From: Pseudomonas sp. ISL-84
GTDB taxonomy: Bacteria; Bacillota; Bacilli; Bacillales; Cytobacillaceae
Assembly (NCBI GenBank): GCA_018613035.1
Contig: JAGGRA010000005.1
Coordinates: 1-64,000, forward strand
Direction: 5' to 3'
Length of the DNA: 64,000 bases
The position numbers and the translations under genes were made by a program. The notes under the pieces are model-generated. The model did no database searches, was not told the origin of the DNA, and was given only the letters and a program-made list of their open reading frames with translations. Of this stretch, positions 22,998 through 64,000 are shown piece after piece. Position 1 is the first letter of the stretch. Each line of letters begins with the position of its first letter.

Positions 22998-23013
22998 TGT
23001 TTCACGTGAAACA
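22998..23013. promoter_or_regulatory. parS site for ParB/Spo0J
   Basis: TGTTTCACGTGAAACA is a perfect 16-bp palindrome and matches the bacterial parS consensus TGTTNCACGTGAAACA. It marks this stretch as part of the origin-proximal chromosome domain loaded with ParB. The rest of 22643-23025 shows no gene; a small GAGGGCATC/GATGCCC hairpin lies near 22780-22810. Confidence 0.9.
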
Positions 23014-59966: not shown

Positions 59967-60012
59967 ACAAAAAAGGGAAGTTTCAGTCAATATCCGAAAC
60001 TTCCCTTTTTTT
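59967..60012. terminator. terminator of the parMR-like operon
   Basis: AAAAAAGGGAAGTTTC pairs with GAAACTTCCCTTTTTT; the right arm overlaps the stop region of the ParR-like gene. Confidence 0.88.
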
Positions 60013-60607
60013 ATTTATTCATATGTGCAAGAAAGCCGCCAAGAAGTGTATCCAAATCTTCCTCGCTTTCCTCTTCAGGTTTATCCTCTGTCTGTTCTTG
60101 CTGTTCTCTTCTTGCTTTTTCCCAATCAAAATCAAGCAAGTCGTCATCATTATCCGCAAGCGATTCAGAATGGTTTTCTTCTAATGAAGCAGCCGCTGAA
60201 TCATATGGTTCAAGATCATGCATGGGCTCCTCCTGCAGATACAACGCCTCATCCAGATTAGAAGACCTGCTGTTCAGGGAGGCAAGCAAAGACGTAGCCC
60301 GGACTGGATCAGTAATTAGCTGATAAAGAATGCTGCCCAGCAACGCCTCTGAATGCTCATGCTTTAGCCAATCCCTTTGAACCTTGCTTAGCCCCTTAGG
60401 AAGGGGGATGGTAATGGTTTCCCGATCCTTATTCTGGGAACCGCTGACCCCCTGCATTACATACTCCGCAATTTTGCTTGAGAAATTCCGTCTTTCCGTT
60501 TCCTTCAGCTTTTGCAAATGCTTCAAAATATGATCAGGTGTATCAGAAGGGACACGAAAGGATATCGATTGTCCTCTCTTTATTTCAGAAGAGGAAGCTT
60601 TTTTCAT
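60011..60607 (-). CDS. ParR-like ribbon-helix-helix adaptor of the actin-type partition locus
   Basis: The 198-residue protein has an N-terminal segment (RGQSISFRVPSDTPDHILKHLQKLKE, then FSSKIAEYVMQGV) with the strand-helix-helix pattern of RHH DNA-binding proteins. A helical middle follows, then a long acidic tail (about residues 130-185) that ends in a compact amphipathic helix, LLGGFLAHMNK. In ParR proteins the RHH part binds the centromere repeats and the C-terminus caps the ParM filament; the same division fits here. It starts 11 nt after the ParM-like gene stops, with AGGGTGAT. Assignment rests on architecture and neighbour, not on sequence identity. Confidence 0.7.
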   Translation of the reverse strand: MKKASSSEIKRGQSISFRVPSDTPDHILKHLQKLKETERRNFSSKIAEYVMQGVSGSQNKDRETITIPLPKGLSKVQRDWLKHEHSEALLGSILYQLITDPVRATSLLASLNSRSSNLDEALYLQEEPMHDLEPYDSAAASLEENHSESLADNDDDLLDFDWEKARREQQEQTEDKPEEESEEDLDTLLGGFLAHMNK

Positions 60608-60618
60608 GAAGTATCACC

Positions 60619-61800
60619 CTAGTTGGCTTTAACAGGTTTTTTGTCCTGGTCTGCCTTTTCTTTATTCGTTCTTCTTGTAAAATCAGAGATCAGCTTATAA
60701 TAAGCATTTGCCATCATCCAGATGCTTTCTTTTTCATCCTCGAAGAAGTCAATATTATAGCCGTCCAGATTGTTATTTAACGTTTTCAGGTAATCTTTTA
60801 AAACGATTGAACCGCCGCCTACAAAGTAGCAGATTTCTGTTTGTGAATTCTTTTGCCATACATTGCGTAGCAGGCGATACTGCTTCTTAGCCAGGTCAAG
60901 AAGGATGCGGTCTGTAATATCATGGACGCTTGTCCGGCTTCCTTTTACCATGATGTGGTTGCGGTCATTCTTCTTCGTAATGATCTCAACTACATCTCTG
61001 CGGCTGTCGAGCTCAACGCCGTGCTTTGATCTGATTTCTTCGCGGATGGATTCAAGTGCCTCTGAAACACCAAGGTTAAATCCCTGCGCTTTGTCATCAT
61101 CCACATTGCGGTTTTTAATTACAGCAATATCGGTTGATAAACCGCCAATATCCTGGATCAAAATGCGCTTATCAATTAGATCCTTATTAATAATGTTCAG
61201 GTTATTGTCCATTACAAGGTTAATGTAAGCCGCAAAACCTTCAGGATAAACTTTGACTTCATCAAATTTGATGTTTACCTTTAATCCTTGATATTTAGGT
61301 GTAACAAGGAACTCAACCTGATGGACAGATCCAAGTAATTTTGAACGATAGCCTGCATCTTTTCCTTCCTTAACTTCACGCAATGGAAGGCCTGTCCCAA
61401 GCGTATAGTTTGAATCAATAACATTTCCTGATTTTTTAAAGCCTGTTGAACCCTCTTTCCTTACAGCATCCAGTGCCAATGCGGCAAAAAGCATTACCAA
61501 TGTCTGATCTTCCTCAGACTTGCTGCTTCCCGGATCAAGCTCAGTAGCGTTGTCACTTTTTGTCGCCAAATGGCCGACACGATAAATTGCATTATTCTCT
61601 TTCAGGGCAGGGGAGTGGACTCTAATATGTATACCTTCTAATGGATCCTTGCTGTCCAGCTCTTCAATTCCAATAACCGGTCTATCTTCAACATCTCTTG
61701 CAATTACATTTGGTATGTTTAATTCTGCATCCATTTTTCCAAATATCGCTTTTATAGAATCGTTCCCTACATCAACTGCTGCAATTCTTGAATTACTCAA
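60619..61800 (-). CDS. ParM/StbA (Alp7A-type) actin-like ATPase
   Basis: The 393-residue actin-fold ATPase has phosphate-1 AAVDVGNDSIKAIFG near residue 7, phosphate-2 IQDIGGLSTDIAVI near the middle and the adenosine motif CYFVGGGSIVLKDY near the C-terminus. It is longer than plasmid R1 ParM and, as I recall them, resembles chromosomal ParM/StbA proteins of the B. cereus group. It should polymerise with ATP and move DNA through the ParR-like protein. The ATG at 61818 has no ribosome site; AAAGGA nine bases before the TTG at 61800 indicates that start. Upstream are a palindrome and two iteron arrays. Confidence 0.88.
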   Translation of the reverse strand: MSNSRIAAVDVGNDSIKAIFGKMDAELNIPNVIARDVEDRPVIGIEELDSKDPLEGIHIRVHSPALKENNAIYRVGHLATKSDNATELDPGSSKSEEDQTLVMLFAALALDAVRKEGSTGFKKSGNVIDSNYTLGTGLPLREVKEGKDAGYRSKLLGSVHQVEFLVTPKYQGLKVNIKFDEVKVYPEGFAAYINLVMDNNLNIINKDLIDKRILIQDIGGLSTDIAVIKNRNVDDDKAQGFNLGVSEALESIREEIRSKHGVELDSRRDVVEIITKKNDRNHIMVKGSRTSVHDITDRILLDLAKKQYRLLRNVWQKNSQTEICYFVGGGSIVLKDYLKTLNNNLDGYNIDFFEDEKESIWMMANAYYKLISDFTRRTNKEKADQDKKPVKAN

Positions 61801-61845
61801 TTCACTCAATCCTTTCATTCTCTTTATTAGAGGTGTTTATTTAAG

Positions 61846-61861
61846 AGTAATCCAGATTACT
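61846..61861. promoter_or_regulatory. 16-bp palindrome, probable parM operator
   Basis: AGTAATCCAGATTACT is a perfect inverted repeat with a CA centre, 46-61 nt upstream of the parM TTG. Position fits an operator next to the promoter; TTGTAA with 17 nt to TACTCT on the minus strand is a weak promoter candidate overlapping it. Confidence 0.55.
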
Positions 61862-61934
61862 AGATTTTACAATGAAAGGAGATAAAAAGTAATGAAAGCG
61901 TAAAGACGTAAACAAAGTGTAAACTTTATCAAAC

Positions 61935-62086
61935 TTGTTTACAAACTTCGATTACTTGTATACATTTCCGCACACATCTATATATACAGGGTTGCATACA
62001 CTTTTGAATACAAGTTTACTTTTTTGTATGCAATTGCATTCATATTTGTATTCTTGTATGCATTTTTGTTTACAACCTTAATTTAC
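61935..62086. repeat. iteron array 1 (parM-proximal), TTGTATAC-like octamers
   Basis: Octamers of the form TTGNWTNC start at 61935, 61956, 61992, 62004, 62024, 62034, 62046, 62054 and 62066, with weaker copies near 61966, 61980, 62012 and 62079. Spacing inside the cluster is 8, 10 or 12 nt. Variants include TTGTATAC, TTGCATAC, TTGTATGC, TTGAATAC and TTGTTTAC. The array is upstream of parM and looks like a parC centromere. Confidence 0.75.
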
Positions 62087-63073
62087 AATTTTTCTTTCTG
62101 AATAAGCGTTATTTTTTGAATTTAATAAGTATTTACTAGGTTCCACGTTCTACTGAATTATTAAATAAGGAGCAGATCCGAATAGGGGAATTAATTTATT
62201 AATCAGATTTCTGATTAATCTTATTGCCTACTCATAAACTCGTATGAATAAATTACTAGATTGAACTCTTATGACGAATCCCCCTTCTTCCTGCTTATGC
62301 GAATACAAACAAAGCTGTCCTCTTTCTTTATTGATAAGCCTATTCCATAAAAGGATCAGCCTATACCAACACCCTTTCAATATCTAGCAAATATGAGAAA
62401 ACATCATTTTTTTGGCACTTGTATCAAAGGACAAGTACTCCGAACCTTCAGGCCTCATCTTTGATTTGTTTTTTCTATAATAACTTCTTAATTATTCCGG
62501 AAGGCAAACCTGACATATGTCCCCTAATAAGCTAATTAGATTTAAATAAGATGGTGGGGTTAATTAGAATGATTCAGGAAGAGTACAGGTTGAAACTGGA
62601 CATCGTTATATGTCGAACATTGAAAAAGCTAAAAACTTCACCTGAAGAAGCAGCATCAGTTGAAATATAAAGAGAAGGGGGGAGAGGTGTAATAAACACT
62701 TCAGCAAATGACCAGTCTAACTAGGGGGGATCTATCACTCCAGCTCATATTTCGCTTCTATAATATTTCGCTTCTATATTTGTTTGGTCGCTCACTATTT
62801 TTTCTTGCTTCTTATTTCCTACTAACGCTCATTTTTCATAATAGGAAATAAAAATGTGAGGACGCCTTGATTAACCGTTTTTCATAAAATATTATCTAGT
62901 TTTTAAGGATAAAGAAATAGTGGAACAGATACCATTTTTTGTTTCATAAGGGCTTCCTGTTATAAATCCTGCTTAGTCTTTGCAAAGGATACTGCACAGA
63001 AAAGGCGGGAGAGCATGGGATCTTTACCTTTAAAAAATTATCTACAAAAAGACTTTATCCAACTCCAGCTACT
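62087..63073. other. gene-poor spacer between the two iteron arrays
   Basis: No convincing gene. The region holds a perfect inverted repeat ATTAATCAGA/TCTGATTAAT (62198-62219), a 16-bp tandem duplication ATATTTCGCTTCTATA (62747 and 62763) and one possible 33-codon ORF (62569-62670). Base composition is AT-rich like the arrays. Confidence 0.6.
62569..62670 (+). CDS. possible small ORF between the arrays
   Basis: ATG at 62569 opens 33 codons (MIQEEYRLKLDIVICRTL, then KKLKTSPEEAASVEI). GGTGGGG lies about 11 nt upstream, and an in-frame ATG at 62551 would add six residues. The helical, charged composition could be real, but there is no homologue I recognise, and it may be chance. Confidence 0.25.
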   Translation: MIQEEYRLKLDIVICRTLKKLKTSPEEAASVEI

Positions 63074-63211
63074 AAATATACACTTTTGCATACGTGTATA
63101 CAAAGGCGCACACTTAGCTTTATACCAATAAGCATACGTTTTTGCACACTTGTTTACATTATTGAATACATTTGTATACATTATTGTTTACTTGCATACA
63201 GTTTTGTTTAC
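63074..63211. repeat. iteron array 2 (distal), TTGTTTAC/TTGCATAC octamers
   Basis: Thirteen octamers start at 63074, 63086, 63094, 63106, 63118, 63130, 63142, 63150, 63162, 63172, 63184, 63192 and 63204, spacings 12, 8, 12, 12, 12, 12, 8, 12, 10, 12, 8 and 12. The last eight are TTGCACAC, TTGTTTAC, TTGAATAC, TTGTATAC, TTGTTTAC, TTGCATAC and TTGTTTAC variants in the same orientation as array 1. It is more regular than array 1. Confidence 0.8.
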
Positions 63212-63345: not shown

Positions 63346-63726
63346 TCAAAAATGCATAAATAAATCTGCGCTTTGAGCTTCATTCAAAACCCATTTAATC
63401 GGGACCTGCTCAGCAGGGTAAAGAAATTCAAAATTATCATCAATATCTAAATCCACGACATACAGCTGAACACCCATTTCTACAGCAATCCCCAGCAGGT
63501 CATGTACAGACGAAACACCAAAGTCACTGACAGCATTTGAAAGATACTCCAGACCATGTGATGGTACGGAGATATATTTTTTATCCAATAGGTTGACGCC
63601 TTTGCGTGAAAAAGCCAAAAGAACTTCTGCACCTGAAGAGGCAGCACCAACAGCAACGTTTAGAGGAGGATAAGCTGTTTCCAATTCTTCATGCATGGCG
63701 AGTACAACTACCTTCTTTTGTTTCAT
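63346..63726 (-). CDS. DsrE/DsrF-like family protein
   Basis: The 126-residue protein has the alpha/beta pattern of the DsrE superfamily: VVVLAMHEELETAYPPLNVAVGAASSGAEVLLAFSRKG at the start and GIAVEMGVQLYVVDLD later. The family includes sulfur-relay proteins, but the usual active cysteine is not obvious here, so the role is open. AGGTTATTTTA precedes the ATG. It follows a second DsrE-type gene by 15 nt and ends in a terminator. Confidence 0.75.
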   Translation of the reverse strand: MKQKKVVVLAMHEELETAYPPLNVAVGAASSGAEVLLAFSRKGVNLLDKKYISVPSHGLEYLSNAVSDFGVSSVHDLLGIAVEMGVQLYVVDLDIDDNFEFLYPAEQVPIKWVLNEAQSADLFMHF

Positions 63727-63741
63727 TAAAATAACCTCCCA

Positions 63742-64000
63742 TCAGTAACTTAGCACAGCATCAGCACTGTACGCGATATCCAGAAAAGTGGCAACGCCGG
63801 CAGTTTCTGCCCCTTCTACAAGCTCTAATCCATCTGCTATTAGAACATTCATCTGGCATCCATATAAGTGAATTCCTTTATTAATAGCCTTCTGAATTAA
63901 AGCAGCAATATCAGCGTCATGCGTTCTTTCAACAATCTTCACATATCGCTTATCTAAAACCCTTGCACCATCCAAGTCAAAAAAGATCGATATATCATGA
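63742..64000 (-). CDS. DsrE-family protein, 5' end cut by the window edge
   Basis: The frame stays open to the window edge (HDISIFFDLDGARVL), so the TTG at 63975 is probably internal. The visible 86 codons include ERTHDADIAALIQKAINKGIHLYGCQMNVLIADGLELVEGAE, typical of DsrE/DsrF-like proteins with a cysteine in LYGCQMN where sulfur-relay members have their active cysteine. It is paired with the next gene, which lacks an equivalent cysteine, suggesting a heteromeric DsrE pair. Confidence 0.7.
   Translation of the reverse strand, partial: HDISIFFDLDGARVLDKRYVKIVERTHDADIAALIQKAINKGIHLYGCQMNVLIADGLELVEGAETAGVATFLDIAYSADAVLSY

Follow-up and report, generated by a model that had tools for sequence, protein, structure and literature searches.

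A conserved ParMRC-type locus with a candidate iteron centromere near the chromosomal origin of Cytobacillus and its relatives

Plasmids are known to use actin for DNA segregation; what, then, does a locus of this kind do on a chromosome that also carries a ParABS partition system? The question was raised by a locus of Pseudomonas sp. ISL-84 (GTDB family Cytobacillaceae; assembly GCA_018613035.1), within the 64,000 nucleotides analysed here (the window), which are the first 64 kb of the 163,788-bp contig JAGGRA010000005.1 of a 5.1-Mb draft genome. An original prediction, made from the letters of the window, had described a partition-like module on a chromosome, in which a parM-like actin gene is followed by a gene for a ParR-like adaptor and preceded by two arrays of short boxes, and had noted that the chromosome also carries parS. 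Both statements held, as the parC-parM-parR order, the contig shared with dnaA and the strong conservation agreed with a partition-like module, and the exact parS site was confirmed (Table 1). Chromosomal ParM proteins were already known (2025, including Bacillus); our comparisons indicated that this is a real, widespread and strongly conserved ParMRC-type locus with a defined centromere candidate, and that its actin ATPase, adaptor and box array are one cassette inherited together. We consider it probable that a plasmid-type ParMRC system has been domesticated here as part of the chromosome, that the array is its centromere, and that the system acts on the origin region beside ParABS.

Table 1. 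Features of the partition-like locus and of its setting in the window
Feature	Positions	Strand	Basis and remarks
parR-like adaptor gene, 198 aa	60011-60607	(-)	Adjacency, conservation, homology to plasmid-borne downstream proteins
parM-like (Alp7A-type) actin ATPase gene	60619-61800	(-)	Pfam, Foldseek, relatives; longest open reading frame 60619-61818 from ATG
Ribosome-binding site AAAGGA	61810-61815	(-)	Consensus of upstream regions
Sigma-A-like promoter between array 1 and parM	61844-61872	(-)	Consensus; predicted, read by eye
Proximal array 1, putative parC-like centromere, ~12 TTGTATAC-like boxes	61900-62074	(-)	Model R1, shuffle test
Spacer between arrays, ~1 kb	62075-63060	.	No convincing gene, fast-evolving; longest open frame 65 codons
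Array 2, ~11 TTGTATAC-like boxes, same register	63061-63211	(-)	Model R1, shared with three closest relatives
parS (ParABS centromere), exact match	22998-23013	.	Same contig as the parM-like locus

The candidate centromere and its inheritance with the gene pair

The arrays were searched with a model, R1, built from 45 relatives from which the window and its three closest relatives (L005-L007) had been excluded. R1 matched array 1 with 86.8 bits (E 4.3e-26) and array 2 with 73.7 bits (E 5.1e-22), and its further matches in the genome (E <= 0.01) were only weaker, reverse-strand ones within both arrays. With up to one mismatch allowed, array 1 held 12 GTATAC-like hexamers, where 2000 dinucleotide shuffles gave 1.5 on average and no more than 6, and array 2 held 11 against a mean of 2.0 and a maximum of 7, while the richest other 160 bp of the window held 5 as compared with 11. 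Both predicted arrays were therefore real, with shifted limits: array 1 does not extend to 62086, and array 2 begins at about 63061. The predicted spacing of 8, 10 or 12 nt, counted from box start to box start and including sums of these, was kept throughout array 2 and in most of array 1, where intervals of 21 and 11 nt departed from it. The direction of a box means little, because TTGTATACAA is palindromic. R1 spans 177 positions, over which the boxes follow each other at 8, 10 or 12 nt in a register that is fixed for the most part and interrupted near the middle by one longer gap; the near-invariant positions of the model were mostly box letters (G, T, A and C), and this register was kept while the sequence between boxes diverged.

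The actin gene and the array occurred together in two samples of relatives. In 397 genomes of the order, at E <= 1e-60 for the gene and E <= 1e-3 for the array, the gene was found in 201 and the array in 202; among the 196 genomes without the gene, the sole array match was a borderline one (G315, E 7e-4). The original prediction had named the absence of arrays from genomes that keep the genes as the finding that would count against it, and when this was checked the array was present in 201 of 201 genomes with the actin gene. In a smaller sample of 61 relatives, 42 had both gene and array, in the same genomes, and four others had distant actin relatives only, with the array absent. In these genome-wide array searches, scoring was confined to the leading candidates from a preliminary look (45 per genome for the smaller sample; 6 per genome, under strict filters, for the larger).

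The arrangement itself was compared in 80 loci, which had 85-99% identity in the best segment; they were the top of 445 stretches encoding a relative, retrieved when 84,980 species, each represented by one genome, were scanned. The actin and adaptor genes were adjacent and a proximal array was present in all 80, usually ~100-300 bp upstream of parM and farther away in two loci (L036, L070), and the weakest proximal match of R1 reached 37 bits (L061). Of these locus sequences, 35 lay outside model building, many of them close to sequences that had been used. A simple octamer scan missed the proximal array in six loci (L007, L020, L033, L058, L062, L074), several of which had GTTTGC-type boxes, and R1 found all of them; L020, from Bacillus methanolicus PB1, thus has both gene pair and array. 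The iteron centromere beside parM that marks a type II system was thus represented by an array co-inherited with the genes, its function as a centromere being putative.

The actin protein was the most conserved part. In an alignment of 36 ParM proteins, the 35 relatives were 86-97% identical to that of the window, with a mean column identity of 88%, and in seven loci with shared neighbours (L016-L020, L023, L024) ParM was 88-89% identical as compared with 57-82% for those neighbours. Among 378 genomes sampled from the class, matches at E <= 1e-30 had either 79-100% or <=44% identity, and the chromosomal clade was therefore sharply bounded. Pfam placed the protein in the ParM/Alp class of actin-fold ATPases expected of a type II system (Alp7A_like_C, 1.4e-37; ALP_N, 1.2e-9), as did a Foldseek search of the PDB with a predicted model of low confidence (predicted local distance difference test, pLDDT, 54), which matched BtParM (1.5e-14), Dh-cParM1 (6e-12), Alp7A (5ec0; 2.8e-11) and also R1 ParM. 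The claimed 11-nt gap to the second gene was found at 60608-60618. Translation of parM probably starts at the TTG at 61800 (393 aa) and not at the ATG at 61818, because the closest relatives carry an in-frame stop just upstream and the shared AAAGGA ribosome-binding site precedes the TTG; the ATG lies upstream of this site, and the aligned start region held an in-frame stop in 11 of the 80 loci.

The adaptor gene followed parM at 5-19 nt in 80 of 80 loci, and its products (189-208 aa) were 55-92% identical; in an alignment of 50 proteins, identity to that of the window was 55-86%, with a mean column identity of 61%. The protein has a predicted strand-helix-helix N-terminus, an acidic linker and a conserved C-terminal tail, LLGGFLAHMNK, which recurred in similar form throughout the loci. 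Its predicted model (mean pLDDT 58) placed a strand at residues 14-18 and helices at 24-37 and 42-60. Two successive strand-helix-helix patterns were seen in the model of ParR (60014-60607), at residues 14-60 and 64-99, with low model confidence, and the protein is possibly a tandem ribbon-helix-helix in one chain.

Promoter boxes and additional arrays

The consensus of upstream regions, taken from 75 of the 80 loci and the window (in L067, L071, L076, L080 and L084 the anchor string could not be located, and these were left out), suggested a -35 element TTGTAA (61872-61867), a 17-nt spacing and a -10 element TACTCT (61849-61844). That boxes stand so close to a promoter permits the explanation that the array is an autoregulatory operator only, with ParM filaments unrelated to chromosome movement. 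Between the end of array 1 and the -35 element downstream of it lie only 27 nt, and in four plasmid relatives, described below, the boxes are arranged around the promoter like an operator. However, the array spans ~175 bp in a conserved register, far beyond what an operator needs, and it stands upstream of the promoter, which argues that it is more than an operator over it. In 13 of the 80 loci, further array copies were found ~0.1-3.2 kb from the first, and genomes without the gene had no array apart from the one borderline match. We therefore regard an operator-only array as distinctly improbable.

The original prediction had presented a split centromere with a 1-kb spacing. Both arrays are present here; the split is not the rule, as the common form had one array and extras were confined to those 13 loci (L005, L006, L007, L028, L035, L044, L045, L058, L068, L069, L070, L076, L077), where some were near the first and weak (31 bits in L058, 44 bits in L076). 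One genome (G045) carried an extra array downstream of parR, and another (G017) carried one 3.2 kb upstream. Multiple arrays thus recur as an optional feature and, judged from these comparisons, the split centromere is lineage-specific. Array 2 was found in the window species and its three closest relatives. Among these four species the 1-kb spacer aligned in patches only (at E 1e-3 the spacer of the window did not match that of one relative, G004), whereas 32 of 40 near-invariant columns of array 2 were identical in all four, as against 26 of 66 variable columns; for array 1 the counts were 46 of 50 and 26 of 70. Because the near-invariant columns were kept while the spacer aligned only in patches, array 2 also appears to be under constraint. 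A distant GTATAC-type array in G009 (C18:450119-450296, L157; 35 bits) was too degenerate to count; it lies on the other side of dnaA, ~278 kb from parM.

Position near the origin and possible roles

The contig of the window, whose nearest named relatives were Cytobacillus oceanisediminis strains and Bacillus sp. J33, carries dnaA at contig positions 152476-153780. A ParB-family gene (TIGR00180, over cut-off) adjoins a ParA-like gene, for which the best models stayed below cut-off, at contig positions 141651-143271 (L192:17651-19271), ~10 kb to the left of dnaA. Because dnaA, the ParA/ParB-family genes and an exact parS share the contig, it is chromosomal; type II ParMRC systems are usually, not strictly, plasmid-borne, and this one is on a chromosome. 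In all 36 genomes measured, the parM-like gene was on the left side of dnaA, at a distance of 34.5-233.6 kb (median 93 kb), and was oriented antiparallel to it, co-directional with the leftward fork. The measurement was made where gene and dnaA stood on one contig (G011, one of a set of 14 genomes, had the two on different contigs and was omitted), 23 of the genomes were hand-picked as single- or few-contig assemblies with the gene, and the 36 are related and so do not represent 36 independent events.

From the parts of the locus, their joint inheritance and conservation, and their position, all of which were observed, we infer binding, polymerisation and movement as follows. ParR dimers would bind the TTGTATAC boxes cooperatively, as near-palindromes 8-12 nt apart, and a segrosome would form as the bound array is wrapped. 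ParR would engage ParM filaments through its acidic or conserved C-terminal tail, and ParM, by ATP-driven polymerisation, would push apart or anchor the two sisters of the origin-proximal region on the left side, working next to ParABS. Promoter-proximal boxes may let ParR repress its own operon, and array 2 would be an optional added binding platform in the same box register, working alike. For many Bacillaceae-type spore-formers, this would amount to a second actin-driven machine for chromosome segregation or origin anchoring besides ParABS, with its own origin-proximal centromere, a proposal for and against which we find the case evenly balanced.

The locus could instead be a relic, or a stabiliser, of an integrated plasmid or mobile element, stabilisation of an integrated element having been among the options of the original prediction. 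Its relatives in plasmid records are indeed plasmid parM genes (37 records, <60% identity). Nevertheless, the most widespread flanking gene within ~7 kb was found in only 19 of 80 loci (neighbours were clustered, not individually annotated for mobile genes), and the flanks differed between genera. Since the flanking genes turn over, the immediate surroundings are not frozen, and the cassette stands alone, near oriC in each of the genomes measured. ParM kept 79-99% identity across many genera, which further indicated that a gene on the chromosome has long been under purifying selection. An integrated element, to which we give hardly any credence, was disfavoured by the turnover of the flanks, by conservation and by position.

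A function mainly or only in sporulation has to be weighed more closely. B. subtilis RacA anchors the origin-proximal chromosome at the forespore pole, and in a comparable manner the module could capture or anchor this region there by means of actin filaments. Its origin-proximal location suits such a role, and parM was absent from all 15 SpoIVA-negative genomes and present in 201 of 382 SpoIVA-positive ones (Fisher p 1.9e-5 on the assumption of independent genomes, which does not hold). However, the 15 negative genomes belonged to four families, one of which (f36) had no parM in any sampled member, so that independent losses number perhaps three. Roughly half of the spore-formers lacked parM, and the promoter was sigma-A-like by eye. 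The genome also encodes a RacA-like protein, whose best score with NCBIfam RacA models was 138 bits against a cut-off of 170 bits; the module is thus no simple replacement of RacA, a possibility that this protein disfavours. The order-wide RacA model was too insensitive for a count to be drawn, with 148 of 264 genomes matching at E 1e-8 and only 6 over cut-off. A sporulation role, as the original prediction had offered among others, was therefore only hinted at by the SpoIVA contrast, and we hold an exclusive or main role of this kind to be possible but rather unlikely.

Several points weigh against a domesticated ParMRC system acting on the origin region. Its support lies at the level of sequence, with binding, filaments and phenotype being predictions. 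The ribbon-helix-helix assignment of the adaptor is weak, as the fold search with its model (pLDDT 58) gave no significant match and its best sequence match in the PDB, an Arc variant, had a weak E of 0.087. Origin proximity could reflect inherited gene order and not need. Related bacteria manage without the gene, which 196 of 397 genomes of the order lacked, and no Alp7A_like_C match was found in Bacillus subtilis, one of 14 control genomes; its absence from B. subtilis may explain why the module stayed unstudied. Weak or diverged arrays elsewhere could have escaped the best-candidate search, and isolated boxes with at most one mismatch numbered 9 outside the arrays on the 163.8-kb contig, compared with 11 in shuffles. 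Finally, ParA/ParB-family genes and a RacA-like protein coexist with the module in the genome, and it would therefore supplement and not replace the others.

Plasmid relatives, known systems and neighbouring genes

Relatives of parM were found in 37 of 72,556 plasmid records, all at <60% identity (39.7-43.5% for the 25 listed), and none of the 72,556 records held a match of at least 60% identity; phages gave only two weak partial matches. Four plasmids were examined: B. methanolicus pBM69, C. kochii pBkBDGP4A, a 24.7-kb plasmid of B. subtilis and P. polymyxa pPPKN03045. Each carried a 144-151-aa gene downstream of parM and, around the parM promoter, about four boxes like those of the window locus (GCATAC/GCATGC variants, read by eye, in pBM69 and pBkBDGP4A), with ParM 41.5-43.5% identical, and no long array was found on the two plasmids scanned whole. 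Their ParR proteins were 25-34% identical to the chromosomal ParR, aligned over the N-terminal part. The presence of such boxes beside diverged gene pairs favours ParR as the reader of the boxes, and a plasmid origin of the chromosomal locus is likely. Among the plasmid relatives (Bacillus, Paenibacillus, Peribacillus, Cytobacillus, Niallia), the four examined thus share with the window locus a parM followed by a short gene and GTATAC/GCATAC-type promoter boxes; the differences are a ParM that is ~40-43% identical among those listed and, in the four examined, a ParR of 144-151 aa without the C-terminal extension and only about four boxes. The family thus allows a comparison of plasmid and chromosomal forms, with about four boxes against a long array and a short ParR against one with a conserved tail.

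The same kinship suggests that chromosomal ParR and its centromere might interfere with incoming plasmids that carry similar ParMRC systems, as a defence based on centromere incompatibility. Boxes of the same kind do occur on plasmids of related hosts, and in Clostridium perfringens, according to one report, ParR-parC specificity decides plasmid incompatibility (PMC9426499). However, ParM was the most conserved part, as would not be expected of a defence gene; at the identities given above, the ParR proteins of the four plasmids were too diverged to resemble the chromosomal one closely; and this explanation gives no reason for origin proximity. We consider it very unlikely.

According to the same report, ParR binds direct repeats that usually lie upstream of parM and vary between plasmids (PMC9426499). 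Chromosome-encoded ParM systems (cParMR) were described in Desulfitobacterium hafniense, Clostridium botulinum and Bacillus tropicus (PMC12270681; J Biol Chem 2025). From the accessible text of that paper, B. tropicus has two systems and Bt-cParM is conserved in several Bacillus species, C. botulinum cParR binds a cparC, no conserved cparC was identified among Clostridium strains (figure legend), and ParCMR had yet to be implicated in chromosome segregation (PMC12270681). Like those systems, the window locus is a chromosomal parM with an adjacent parR, conserved across species; compared by description only, the same text gave for the Bacillus systems no centromere, origin-proximal placement or order-wide co-conservation of an array (PMC12270681). 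Within the titles and abstract beginnings of the open-access literature, no publication was found on the array, the origin-proximal position or the function of this clade. In this clade the candidate centromere can be given base by base, is origin-proximal and occurs together with the motor in all 201 gene-bearing genomes, which would make a direct test simple.

Among other systems, the locus resembled Alp7A/Alp7R/alp7C of B. subtilis pLS20 in its Alp7A C-terminal domain (above the Pfam cut-off) and in the Foldseek match to 5ec0, and it differed in being chromosomal and in having a long iteron array. It shares with ParABS (Soj/Spo0J/parS) the status of an origin-proximal chromosomal partition system, on the same contig; ParABS uses a Walker ATPase and not an actin, ParB and not ParR, and parS sites and not iterons. 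RacA-type anchoring relies on binding sites scattered over the origin region. The adaptor matched no NCBIfam family at E 0.01, and scattered sites of the RacA/ram kind were rejected for the 163.8-kb contig, where none stood above local shuffles.

Upstream of array 2, two adjacent DsrE/DsrF-like frames were observed (63346-63726 and 63742-63999, the second cut by the window end); they matched opposite ends of the DsrE_2 profile and perhaps go back to a longer ancestor that was split. Another actin-like gene of ~395 aa, chromosomal and only distantly related (Pfam ALP_N, Alp7A_like_C), was found at G000 C93:4675-5862 (L166) and also in L163-L165, L167 and L168. Together with a 125-128-aa partner, it lay in a cluster for the spore coat that includes CotZ and exosporium proteins of the CsxC family, and actin, partner, and CotZ and CsxC relatives stood together in all six loci examined. 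In seven of the eight genomes placed, this gene lay across from the origin, 48-50% of the chromosome away from dnaA, and in the remaining one (G018) it was at 9%.

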